Shown here piece by piece: positions 1,409 through 9,942 of a stretch of 64,000 bases of DNA. Origin of the DNA: Ruicaihuangia caeni (lineage in GTDB: Bacteria; Actinomycetota; Actinomycetes; Actinomycetales; Microbacteriaceae); assembly GCF_029952955.1 (NCBI RefSeq), contig NZ_JASATX010000002.1:369316-433315 (forward strand). Reading direction: 5' to 3'. Within the stretch, counting starts at the first letter, position 1. Each line of letters starts with the position of its first letter. The position numbers and the translations under genes are program-made. A model generated the notes under the pieces. It was not told where the DNA came from. It worked only from the letters and a program-made list of their open reading frames with translations, and ran no database searches.

Positions 1409-2566
1409 TCAGGCAGCCGGGGTGAGCTCCCGACCGTCTGCCCATACACGTCGAACGTTCCACTCGGCATCGAGCAGCAGCATGTCAGCAACGGAACCGG
1501 GGTCCAACCGACCGGCACGGTCGAGACCGATCGCGCGCGCCGGCGTCTCCGTCGCCGCGGCGACGGCGTCGGCCTCCGGCACCCCGGCCTCGATCGCGCG
1601 CCGAACCGCTGCATCCATGGTCAGTGTCGACCCTGCGATGGCGCCGCCGTCGCGGAGGCGTGCGACGCCCTCCCGCACCTGCACATCCAGCGAGCCGAGC
1701 ACGTAGTCGCCATCGTGCGAGCCGGCTGCCGCCATGGCGTCGGTGACGAGCGCGATGCGGCCGGGCGCTCCGGCGAATGCGAGCCGCACGACTTCCGGTC
1801 GCACATGCACGCCGTCGTTGATGAGTTCGAGGGTCACACCCGGTGCCTCGGTTGCAGCGATCACCGGTCCGGGCTCGCGGTGATGGATGCCACGCATGGC
1901 GTTGAACGCGTGAGTGAGGAGGGTCGCTCCCGACTCGAAGGCGGCCCGCGCCTGCTCGAAATCGGCGCCCGTGTGACCGACCGCGACGCGAATGCCCGCC
2001 TCGCGGAACAGTGCGATGGCCTCGCTCGCACCGGGCAGTTCGGGGGCGAGGGTGACCTGGCGGATCACCCCGTGGCCCGCCTCGATGAGCCGCTGCACCG
2101 CGGCTGCGCTCGGAGCGCGCAGCTGGGCCGGGTCGTGCGCACCGCGGAACTCGTGCTCGATGAACGGCCCTTCGAGATGCACCCCGACCACGAGCGGATC
2201 GTCGGCCATGACGGATGCCGCGGCATCCAGCCGCCGCTCCAGCACCTCGAGCGGGGCGGTCACGAATGAGAGCACGCTGCGGGTGGTGCCGTGCGCGCGG
2301 TGCAGCGAGAGCGCTTGGCGGATCGCGTCGGCGCCGTTGTCGAAGGAGGCGCCGCCCCCGCCATGGCAGTGGATGTCGACGAAACCAGCGGTGAGCGTCA
2401 ACCCGCGAGCATCGACCACGACCGCATCGCCGACAGAGTGCTGCCGCCAGTCGTCGCCGCCTCCGAGCGCGATGATGCCTCGTTCGTCGAAGACGATCCA
2501 CGCCTCCGGGTGCCGCTCGTCGCTGGAGGGGCGGATGAGGCGGCCGGAGTGGATGACGGTGCGCAT
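1409..2566 (-). CDS. nagA: N-acetylglucosamine-6-phosphate deacetylase
   Basis: This 385-residue amidohydrolase removes acetate from GlcNAc-6-phosphate in amino-sugar catabolism and cell-wall recycling. Visible metal and active-site residues are the HCHGGGG loop (about residues 66-72), Glu132 in GVHLEGPF, His198 in VGHTG, His219 in THAFNAM and the catalytic Asp276 in LVTDAMAAAG. Length and motif order match the family. The frame runs on upstream to 2680, but that part overlaps the riboswitch region and is not family-like, so ATG 2566 (MRTVIHSGR) is chosen. It is divergent from glyA. No nagB or sugar transporter gene is nearby. Confidence 0.93.
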   Translation of the reverse strand: MRTVIHSGRLIRPSSDERHPEAWIVFDERGIIALGGGDDWRQHSVGDAVVVDARGLTLTAGFVDIHCHGGGGASFDNGADAIRQALSLHRAHGTTRSVLSFVTAPLEVLERRLDAAASVMADDPLVVGVHLEGPFIEHEFRGAHDPAQLRAPSAAAVQRLIEAGHGVIRQVTLAPELPGASEAIALFREAGIRVAVGHTGADFEQARAAFESGATLLTHAFNAMRGIHHREPGPVIAATEAPGVTLELINDGVHVRPEVVRLAFAGAPGRIALVTDAMAAAGSHDGDYVLGSLDVQVREGVARLRDGGAIAGSTLTMDAAVRRAIEAGVPEADAVAAATETPARAIGLDRAGRLDPGSVADMLLLDAEWNVRRVWADGRELTPAA

Positions 2567-2613
2567 CGTGAGCTTCACTCTACTGCTGCGCGTTCGCGGC
2601 ATCCGGGCATAGA

Positions 2614-2700
2614 ATCGGGTCGTCGCGACTGGCGTCGGATGGGTCACCATCGGGGAGCGACAGACACGGATCGGCCGCACGCCTGGGCCCGCACCCGACT
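2614..2700 (+). promoter_or_regulatory. ZTP riboswitch (pfl motif) upstream of glyA-folD
   Basis: The leader carries the conserved blocks of the pfl/ZTP aptamer in the right order: GGGTCGTCGCGACTGGCG at 2617-2634, ACCATCGGGGAGCG at 2646-2659 and CCGCACGCCTGGGC at 2675-2688. Known ZTP riboswitches sense the folate-stress signal ZMP/ZTP and switch on one-carbon and purine genes such as glyA, folD and purH. Here the element ends about 35 nt before the glyA start and glyA is followed by folD, the expected regulon. No strong terminator stem is visible after it, so control of translation initiation is possible. Confidence 0.88.
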
Positions 2701-2736
2701 AGTTTTGTCATGTCCGTGTCTGTGAAGGAGTACTCC

Positions 2737-4014
2737 GTGTCCGACCGCCTCCCCTCCACGTTCAACGAACCGCTCAGCGTCGTCGACCCGGAGATCGCCA
2801 AGGTCCTCGAGCAAGAGCTCGGCCGTCAGCGCGACTACCTCGAGATGATCGCGAGCGAGAACTTCGTGCCGCTCGCCGTGCTCGAGGCGCAGGGCTCGGT
2901 GCTCACCAACAAGTACGCCGAGGGCTACCCTGGACGCCGCTACTACGGCGGCTGTGAGTACGTCGACGTGGCCGAGAACCTGGCGATCGAGCGCGCGAAG
3001 TCGCTCTTCGGTGCCAAGTTCGCGAATGTGCAGCCGCACGCCGGCGCGCAGGCGAACGCCGCGGTGCTGCACGCCATCGCGAAGCCCGGCGACCGCATCC
3101 TCGGCCTGGAGCTCGCTCACGGTGGTCACCTCACGCACGGCATGCGCCTGAACTTCTCGGGCCGCCTCTACGAGGCGCACGCCTACGGCGTCGACCCCGA
3201 GACCATGCGCATCGACATGGACGTGGTGCGCGAGAAGGCGCTCGAGGTGCGCCCCCAGGTACTCATCGCCGGCTGGTCGGCCTACCCTCGACAGCTCGAC
3301 TTCGAGGCCTTCCGCTCGATCGCCGATGAAGTGGGCGCGACGCTCTGGGTCGACATGGCGCACTTCGCCGGACTGGTGGCGGCTGGGCTGCACCCCTCGC
3401 CGGTGCCGTACGCCGACGTGGTGAGCTCGACCGTGCACAAGACAATCGGCGGACCCCGTTCGGGCTTCATCCTGTCGAACGACGCCGACATCGCGAAGAA
3501 GCTCAACTCGGCGGTGTTCCCGGGGCAGCAGGGCGGCCCGCTCATGCATGTGATCGCAGCGAAGGCGGTCGCGTTCAAGCTCGCTGCCGAGCCCGAGTTC
3601 AAGGACCGTCAGGAGCGCACGCTGCGCGGCGCGAAGCTGCTTGCGGAGCGGCTCACGGCATCCGACTCGCGTGACGCCGGCATCGACGTGCTCACGGGTG
3701 GCACCGATGTGCACCTCGTGCTCGCCGACCTTCGCGAGTCGGCGATCGACGGCAAGCAGGCCGAAGATCTGCTGCATCAGGTCGGCATCACCGTGAACCG
3801 CAACTCGGTGCCCTTCGACCCCCGCCCGCCGATGGTCACCTCGGGTGTTCGCATCGGCACCCCGGCGCTCGCCACTCGTGGCTTCGACGATGCGGAGTTC
3901 ACCGAGGTCGCCGATGTGATCGCGTCGGTGCTGATGCCTGGCGCCGACATCGATTCGGCGCGCGCACGGGTGAAGGCGCTCGCCGACGCGTTCCCCCTGT
4001 ACCAGGCGCTCTGA
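2737..4014 (+). CDS. glyA: Serine hydroxymethyltransferase
   Basis: This 425-residue PLP enzyme interconverts serine plus tetrahydrofolate with glycine plus 5,10-methylene-THF. Family landmarks include MIASENFVP near the N-terminus, [15 protein letters not shown], and the PLP lysine at about residue 235 in [13 protein letters not shown], followed by [11 protein letters not shown] 2737 is preferred over ATG 2710 because AAGGAG (2725-2730) lies 6 nt before it. Translation is probably governed by the ZTP riboswitch just upstream. folD follows after 22 nt, so both one-carbon enzymes should be co-transcribed. Confidence 0.95.
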
Positions 4015-4036
4015 TCGAGTGGAGGAGGCTGAGCCG

Positions 4037-4924
4037 ATGACCGCGATCACGCTCGACGGCGTCGCCACCGCGTCGGCCGTGAAGTCGGAGTTGGCCTCGC
4101 GGATCGCGGCCCTGCGAGCGCGCGGCGTCGTGCCAGGGCTCGGCACGCTCCTCGTGGGCGACGACCCTGGATCGCGTTCGTATGTCGCCGGCAAGCACCG
4201 CGACTGCGCCGAAGTCGGCATCGAATCGATCCGCGTCGATCTGCCGGCCACGGCGACGGATGCCGATGTGCGTGCCGCGATCGACCGGCTCAACAGCGAC
4301 CCGGCCGTCACCGGCTACATCGTGCAGCTTCCGCTGCCGCGCGGCCTCGACGAGCACGCCGCGCTCGAGGCGATGGACCCGGCGAAGGATGCCGACGGCC
4401 TCCACCCGACCAACCTCGGCCGCCTCGTGCTCGGCGTCGCCGGCGAGCTCGACTCGCCGCTACCGTGCACCCCCGCTGGCATCGTCGAGCTGCTGCAGCG
4501 CTACGACGTGCCGATCGCGGGTCGGCATGTGGTGGTAGTCGGTCGAGGCATCACGGTCGGACGTCCGCTCGGCCTGCTGCTGACCCGCAAGGGCCTCGAC
4601 GCCACAGTGACGCTGACGCACTCGCGCACGGTCGATCTCGCCGCAGAAGTGCGCCGGGCCGACATCGTGGTCGCGGCGGTCGGAGTGCCGCACCTCATCA
4701 AGCCCGACTGGGTGAAGCCCGGCGCCGCGGTGCTCGACGTGGGCATCACGCGCGTCGAAGATCCCGCCACAGGCAAGGGCAGGCTGACCGGCGATGTCGA
4801 CCCCGCGGTCGCGTCCATCGCCGGGCACCTGTCGCCCAACCCGCGCGGGGTCGGGCCCATGACGCGGGCCATGCTGCTCGCCAACGTCGTGAAGGCCGCC
4901 GAGCTGCAGCATCCCGCCGCCTAG
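4037..4924 (+). CDS. folD: Bifunctional methylene-THF dehydrogenase/cyclohydrolase
   Basis: This 295-residue protein oxidises 5,10-methylene-THF to methenyl-THF and hydrolyses it to 10-formyl-THF. Conserved residues are Lys53 (YVAGKHRDC), Gln97 (YIVQLPLP), Asp120 (DADGLHP) and the nucleotide-binding [11 protein letters not shown] near residue 170. The C-terminal [17 protein letters not shown] is the family signature. A frame-extending GTG at 4019 is less likely than ATG 4037, which has GGAGGAGG about 8 nt upstream. It forms an operon with glyA behind the ZTP riboswitch. Confidence 0.95.
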
Positions 4925-5037
4925 GCCGAGCCGGCACCTCAGCCGCTACGGCGCAGAGTACGCGGAGCGGGCGCTGTTACGCTCGATCGGACGATCCGGC
5001 AGGATGCCGCCGGGCACACCCGCGAGAGGAAGTCACC

Positions 5038-5160
5038 ATGTGTCAGCCAGTCACCTGCAACCGCTGCGGCAAAGTGACGTGGGCCGGCTGCGGTGAGCAC
5101 ATCGAAGAGGCGAAGGCTCAAGTTCCCGCCTCTGAGTGGTGCGGCCACGTCGCCGAGTAG
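5038..5160 (+). CDS. Small Cys-rich zinc-ribbon-like protein (40 aa)
   Basis: A complete 40-residue ORF starts at ATG 5038 with GAGAGGAAG upstream. It has four cysteines arranged as CNRCGK near the N-terminus, then WAGCGEH, and WCGHV near the C-terminus. Cys and His spacing suggests a single bound zinc. I recall similar very short proteins with the CxxCGKxTWAGCGxH pattern in many Actinobacteria, with no assigned function. It lies between folD and the SMR pair and may be monocistronic. Confidence 0.75.
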   Translation: MCQPVTCNRCGKVTWAGCGEHIEEAKAQVPASEWCGHVAE

Positions 5161-5196
5161 ACGCACGAAGCGATCGGTGGTGAGTAGTCTCACCAC

Positions 5197-5604
5197 ATGC
5201 GATCTCGCGGCACGGCTGCCCCGTTGAAGCGCTGGCTGCTGCTGTCGGCCGCGATCCTCACCGAGGTGGTGGGCACGCTCGCGTTGAGGGCCACGGTCGA
5301 TGACGCCGTCTGGATGCCGGTCGTGATCGTCACCTATGCGGCCGCGTTCGTGCTGCTGGGGCTCGCGCTTCGCGCCGGGATGCCGGTGGGCATCGCCTAC
5401 GGCATCTGGGGCGCCTGCGGTGTCGCGCTCACCGCGGTGCTCGCCGCGGTGCTCTTCGACGAGCTGTTGAGCGGACCGGCGATCGTCGGCATCCTGCTCA
5501 TCATCGTGGGTGTCGTTGTCGTCGAGATGGGGTCGCACCCACTTCGCCGGGCCTCCACTCCGAAGACAGAACTGGCAGCCGAGCCAGACGAGGGCGCCGC
5601 ATGA
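5197..5604 (+). CDS. Small multidrug resistance (SMR) transporter subunit A
   Basis: This 135-residue protein has four predicted helices, preceded by a short basic N-terminus and followed by a charged C-terminal tail of about 25 residues. The first helix contains AAILTEVVGTLALR with the membrane Glu that binds cations and protons in SMR proteins. The third-helix region GMPVGIAYGIWGACG matches the family. Its stop overlaps the start of the next SMR gene (ATGA), so the two probably form an obligate heterodimer like EbrAB or YkkCD. No guanidine riboswitch is visible upstream. Confidence 0.85.
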   Translation: MRSRGTAAPLKRWLLLSAAILTEVVGTLALRATVDDAVWMPVVIVTYAAAFVLLGLALRAGMPVGIAYGIWGACGVALTAVLAAVLFDELLSGPAIVGILLIIVGVVVVEMGSHPLRRASTPKTELAAEPDEGAA

Positions 5605-5915
5605 GCTGGTTCTGGCTCTCGCTCGCAATCGTCACCGAGGTGGCGGCGACGCTCAGCTTGCGCGCTTCAGACGGGCTTCGCAAACGCCGGTGGCTGGTCC
5701 CGGTGGTCATCGGCTACGTCGCCTCGTTCTTCTTCCTGGCCTTCACCCTCGAAGCGGGGATGCCGGTGGGCATCGCCTACGGCGTCTGGAGTGCGATCGG
5801 CATTGTCGCTGTTGCCGTTCTCGCTCGCGCCATCTGGAAGGAGCCGTTGACCAAGCGGATGGTGCTCGGCATCGTCATCATCATCGCGGGCGTCGTGCTC
5901 GTCGAGCTCGGCTGA
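5601..5915 (+). CDS. Small multidrug resistance (SMR) transporter subunit B
   Basis: This 104-residue four-helix SMR protein is translationally coupled to the preceding one through a 4-nt overlap. AIVTEVAATLSLRASDGLRKR carries the conserved Glu of helix 1, and GMPVGIAYGVWSAIG is the helix 3 motif. It lacks the long C-terminal tail of its partner. Two unequal adjacent SMR genes are the hallmark of heterodimeric exporters of quaternary ammonium or guanidinium-like cations. The substrate is not known. Confidence 0.87.
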   Translation: MSWFWLSLAIVTEVAATLSLRASDGLRKRRWLVPVVIGYVASFFFLAFTLEAGMPVGIAYGVWSAIGIVAVAVLARAIWKEPLTKRMVLGIVIIIAGVVLVELG

Positions 5916-9866: not shown

Positions 9867-9942
9867 TGGTGGGCCCGGCGGGGCTCGAACCCGCGACCCG
9901 CGGATTAAAAGTCCGCTGCTCTGCCAGCTGAGCTACAGGCCC
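9867..9942 (-). tRNA. tRNA-Lys (anticodon UUU)
   Basis: On the minus strand the sequence folds as a complete cloverleaf. The acceptor stem is GGGCCTG with CGGGCCC. The D arm carries TAGCTCAGCTGG. The anticodon stem GCGGA/TCCGC has loop CTTTTAA, giving UUU. The T arm is GCGGGTTCGAGCCCCGC. The discriminator is A and CCA is encoded. It lies at the edge of the catabolic island. Confidence 0.95.

Follow-up and report, generated by a model that had tools for sequence, protein, structure and literature searches.

The leader of glyA and folD in Ruicaihuangia caeni carries a ZTP riboswitch, which confirms what the first-pass annotation had proposed for this locus. The locus is a well-placed, ordinary member of a known riboswitch class whose family and gene link are already in print, and its biology is the expected one, i.e., one-carbon supply under the control of folate stress. 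The riboswitch probably raises glyA-folD expression, with a helix between the J1/3 strand of the aptamer and the stretch preceding the Shine-Dalgarno sequence of glyA blocking ribosome loading when ZMP is absent.

The ZTP aptamer and its genes

The RF01750 model (ZMP/ZTP riboswitch, pfl motif) matches positions 2615-2695 of the window (the whole stretch of 64,000 nucleotides that was analysed; features lie on its plus strand unless indicated otherwise) with 56.3 bits, the gathering score being 39 (E 1.9e-6 for 64 kb against 4227 families). This is the sole RF01750 match found in the source genome. The alignment spans model positions 1-86 of 86 and contains P1, P2, P3 and the conserved core in order; the earlier reading of complete and ordered pfl/ZTP blocks in front of glyA was thus correct, and the covariance search suggested as its check gave a score above the threshold. 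As transcribed, the aptamer is predicted to occupy positions 2622-2695. Its P1 consists of GTCGC (2622-2626) paired with GCGAC (2657-2661), as seen from the RF01750 alignment and the pairing counts in the family, whereas the outer P1 pairs of the Rfam model are partly mismatched in the window. The P2 hairpin (GATGG/CCATC, 2638-2651) and the P3 stem-loop (GGCC/GGCC, 2673-2689) follow from the sequence and the same alignment. Furthermore, GGCG at 2631-2634 can pair with CGCC at 2680-2683, and from our reading of the sequence we take these strands to form the pseudoknot that is presumably common to ZTP riboswitches.

Downstream of the aptamer, glyA encodes serine hydroxymethyltransferase (2737-4014; NF000586, 597.2 bits, cut-off 335). 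The folD gene that had been claimed to follow it was found at 4037-4924, 22 nt past the glyA stop codon, and passes its NCBIfam cut-off (NF010789, 455.9 bits, cut-off 401), so that genes of purine or one-carbon metabolism lie downstream on the same strand. The GTG start codon of glyA (2737-2739) and its Shine-Dalgarno sequence AAGGAG (2725-2730) had been recognised correctly, but the distance between aptamer and start codon had been given as about 37 nt and is 41 nt from the end of the Rfam match. The in-frame ATG at 2710-2712, 27 nt upstream of the GTG, had rightly been called an annotation trap: by eye, no Shine-Dalgarno-like sequence lies ahead of it, and in both congeners (L032 and L033) the GlyA match starts at the residue of the GTG. 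On the other side of the aptamer, nagA (TIGR00221, 245 bits, cut-off 226) is divergent, starting at about 2563 on the minus strand. Elsewhere in the window, a tRNA gene is located at 9870-9942 on the minus strand (RF00005, 70.8 bits), and two ORFs for small membrane proteins (5197-5915), which share 4 nt, resemble by eye a paired SMR-type transporter.

Within the Microbacteriaceae, 220 of 249 genomes have a match to RF01750 (218 of the 249 over the cut-off), as do all three genomes of the genus, the window's genome being included in both cases. Samples of the order and of the class gave 79 of 119 and 57 of 148 genomes with a match, respectively, counts that include the window's genome and some of its family. 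These large genome searches were run with stricter filters, and 29 of the 249 family genomes had no match under them. Such gaps would fit an aptamer that is a relic, i.e., genuine in sequence but with little regulatory function left. However, this explanation is hardly credible, as so many family genomes (218) exceed the cut-off, the conserved blocks are kept and the spacing to the promoter is fixed.

The comparison of leaders started from 133 loci, namely that of the window, 30 best-scoring ones, two that came from the search of the genus and 100 chosen by hand among the places listed. In 128 of them glyA is present. We kept 117 leaders representing 55 genera, a set biased toward better-scoring aptamers (we removed two repeats, three identical leaders and six in which no anchor or start was recognised). 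Among the nearest named contigs is one of Cryobacterium levicorallinum, whose GlyA is 84% identical to that of the window. A sequence titled Planococcus sp. APC 4015 (L204) has a leader of actinobacterial type, and its GlyA shares 79% identity with that of the window; the name looks wrong. At some loci the aptamer occurs without glyA: in L014, L080 and L120 the next ORF is purH-like by eye, in L055 there is no glyA after the aptamer, and in L093 (G070:C4:162271-162354, minus strand) the ZTP aptamer is followed by an ORF that resembles by eye an MFS transporter and not a folate or purine enzyme.

Promoter spacing and the 5' end of the RNA

The first-pass annotation had placed the 5' edge of the element at 2614. 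Most likely, however, positions 2614-2621, and with them the 5' edge of the Rfam match, are a DNA signal (the end of a -10 hexamer and the discriminator), and the mRNA begins at about 2622, the first base of P1. Two regularities suggest that this 5' edge is probably promoter, namely the fixed spacing between hexamer and aptamer and the restriction of the conserved P1 to five pairs. In the window, the -10-like hexamer TAGAAT (2610-2615) starts 18 nt ahead of the conserved ACTGGCG, the spacing typical of the family: TANNNT starts 17-19 nt ahead of ACTGGC in 115 of the 117 family leaders (54 of 55 genera). A simple motif search of 80 named glyA contigs, some of which are genomes already counted, placed the hexamer at -18 or -19 in 48 of 48 leaders with a recognised aptamer; the other 32 contigs contained no aptamer by this motif pattern. 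Outside the family, 52 of 53 loci (strands assigned by hand) could be anchored, with the hexamer at -16 to -20 in 36 and at -21 to -26 in 14; the two anchored loci lacking it are probably mis-anchored. By eye, the five loci without glyA have the hexamer at -18 in four cases (L014, L055, L080, L120) and at -21 in one.

The five P1 pairs are formed in 109-117 of the 117 leaders (93-100%). The position beyond them is paired in 50 of 117 leaders (43%, with 37% expected), or 30 of 55 if counted per genus (42% expected); P1 may thus be longer in a small number of leaders. Nearly all leaders (115 of the 117) have a purine at the predicted +1. A consensus promoter scan of 2400-5200 revealed no two-hexamer promoter and no -35 was recognised, which suggests that the -35 is weak or absent.

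J1/3, the Shine-Dalgarno region and the level of control

J1/3 together with the last two bases of P1 (ACAGACACGGA, 2660-2670) forms a perfect 11-nt inverted repeat with the stretch before the Shine-Dalgarno sequence (TCCGTGTCTGT, 2713-2723), and the corresponding helix stops one base short of the Shine-Dalgarno sequence. Such complementarity is also above chance in the family as a whole. Across the 117 leaders, the pairing energy of the P1 3' strand plus J1/3 with the leader's own pre-Shine-Dalgarno stretch averaged -10.5, compared with -9.0 for permuted partners (z -6.7, 0/20000 permutations), and the own pair was within the best 5% of its row in 18 leaders. With a single leader per genus (55 genera) z was -5.5 (0/3000), whereas the controls, five downstream windows and five segments from elsewhere, gave z between -1.9 and +1.5; the control window from SD-62 to SD-40 contained too few leaders. 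In the per-genus set, J1/3 alone reached z -5.2 and the P1 3' strand alone (9 nt) z -1.9. The signal therefore resides in J1/3, and direct competition with P1 involves only two bases in the window. A sliding scan over the 55 genera had its complementarity peak at SD-12 to 0 (z -5.0), although a distant window at +28 to +40 also reached z -2.3.

Omission of the window's genus left z at -3.8 to -5.3 over ten draws (-2.4 to -3.6 by rank). After removal of the six best of 54 genera it fell to -1.7, with 236 of 5000 permutations as low; the signal thus rests mostly on a subset, and the complementarity of J1/3 to the pre-Shine-Dalgarno stretch marks some members of the family and is weak elsewhere. 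In the two congeners, helices of 7 and 9 pairs ending 4-5 nt from the Shine-Dalgarno sequence can be drawn by eye. Their changes are one-sided only, and no double compensatory change was seen by eye within the genus.

The octamer TCCGTGTC occurs twice, before the Shine-Dalgarno sequence (2713-2720) and over the start codon (2734-2741), and both copies are complementary to J1/3. In a rival reading, the main alternative partner of J1/3 would be the start codon itself, with 2663-2670 pairing with 2734-2741 and hiding the GTG directly. We regard this as quite improbable for the window, even though the 8-nt complement over the start codon is perfect: the upstream helix is longer (11 vs 8 pairs), and the complementarity scan has no peak at the start codon. 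As a shared mechanism, pairing with the start codon is unsupported as well, GACAC in J1/3 and GTGTC at the start being unassociated per genus (Fisher p 1.0, 55 genera; p 0.053 for the 117 leaders).

Folding models agreed in part with a block by the longer helix before the Shine-Dalgarno sequence. We compared the free fold with a bound-like model in which P1 is forced and J1/3 is single-stranded by construction, pseudoknot and ligand being left out. Opening the span from SD-6 to start+13 in the window costs 21.2 kcal/mol in the free fold vs 8.6 in the bound-like model, and across genera it is cheaper by at least 1 kcal/mol in the bound-like model in 37 of 55 and dearer in 6. For the narrow span from the Shine-Dalgarno sequence to the start codon, the opening cost in the window rises from 5.2 to 7.1. 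The Shine-Dalgarno sequence itself is not freed in the bound-like model: its openness goes up by more than 0.2 in 7 of the 117 leaders and down by more than 0.2 in 22, and in the window it changes from 0.51 to 0.29. In the L111 leader, the Shine-Dalgarno sequence lies inside the helix. General sequestration of the Shine-Dalgarno sequence by pairing had been expected, but was not seen in the folding models of the 117 leaders.

A swap control, in which the pre-Shine-Dalgarno stretch was exchanged for those of other genera, gave weak support across the 55 genera (own above swapped in 32, Wilcoxon p 0.041) and none for the window, whose modelled opening gain of 12.6 falls inside the range of 10.5-15.0 obtained with the foreign stretches. 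That this high gain survives the swap is perhaps due to the second TCCGTGTC over the start codon, a point in favour of the start-codon pairing. Free folding of 2613-2800 (z -1.66, 10 of 200 shuffles as stable) and of 2656-2800 (z -0.47, 60 of 200) showed no unusual stability and was consequently left out of the evidence. As the models do not free the Shine-Dalgarno sequence and the window does not stand out in the swap control, the mechanism remains a matter of inference.

The translational control envisaged in the first-pass annotation is favoured by a simple scan of 2400-5200, which revealed no terminator-like site of the kind used by terminator-type ZTP platforms, and by the potential of J1/3 to pair with the pre-Shine-Dalgarno stretch, which is supported across genera; some of the folding controls do not support it, and its direction and level are deduced. 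There is a small but real chance that the same riboswitch acts on transcription, a long J1/3 hairpin or the untranslated leader exposing the RNA to Rho unless ZMP prevents it. Indeed, the ZTP riboswitches of C. beijerinckii and F. ulcerans work via a terminator hairpin (PMC10085676; PMC7484762), and predicted terminators overlap many pfl RNAs (PMC2864571), according to the excerpts available of these papers. Against control of transcription stand the result of the terminator scan and the location of the conserved complementarity at the Shine-Dalgarno sequence.

The translational reading, which we prefer, can be put as follows. ZMP/ZTP would accumulate in a shortage of 10-formyl-tetrahydrofolate, and glyA-folD expression would go up. 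Transcription would begin at about 2622, so that the aptamer is made first, with a P1 of five pairs. In the ZMP-bound state, the J1/3 strand would be kept from other pairing by P1, P3 and the pseudoknot; without ZMP, J1/3 (2660-2670) would pair with 2713-2723 to give a long helix ending one base ahead of the Shine-Dalgarno sequence, which would hinder ribosome loading. For Microbacteriaceae and many leaders of the surrounding class, we give even chances to a more general proposal: the aptamer would be locked to its promoter so that P1 starts right at +1, and some members of the family would have J1/3, not P3, taken by the pre-Shine-Dalgarno segment in a distinct translational platform.

Comparison with known ZTP riboswitches

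The ligand of the ZTP riboswitch was reportedly identified in a paper from 2015, which may also describe translational members. The locus described here resembles the RF01750 family in its full-length covariance match and its glyA-folD context. It differs in P1, which is conserved over five pairs and apparently begins at +1, whereas the Rfam model draws ten pairs. The pfl motif was linked to glyA and folD in a paper of 2010, which also predicted an ON direction (PMC2864571), and its validation by means of ZMP and ZTP has been reported as well (PMC7266159). Among the titles and abstract openings retrieved in our literature search, none dealt with an aptamer starting at +1 or with an invader of J1/3. 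If promoter lock and J1/3 invader prove true, they would offer a testable translational platform in a class that the cited papers, as far as their excerpts go, have dissected via terminators, and coordinates of covariance matches would be unsafe as transcript ends.

A covariation model from 2026 likewise derives the rearrangement between aptamer and platform from RF01750 sequence alignments (PMC13273304). According to the excerpt, that model was built on sequences with intrinsic terminators, whereas the leader in the window has no terminator by simple scan. The pfl ZTP riboswitch of Clostridium beijerinckii belongs to the same aptamer class and, in the part of the report available, also has a downstream invader strand in competition with the aptamer (PMC10085676). 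That strand breaks up P3 and the pseudoknot and gives rise to a terminator, whereas the invader proposed here would take J1/3, spare P3 and end at the Shine-Dalgarno sequence.
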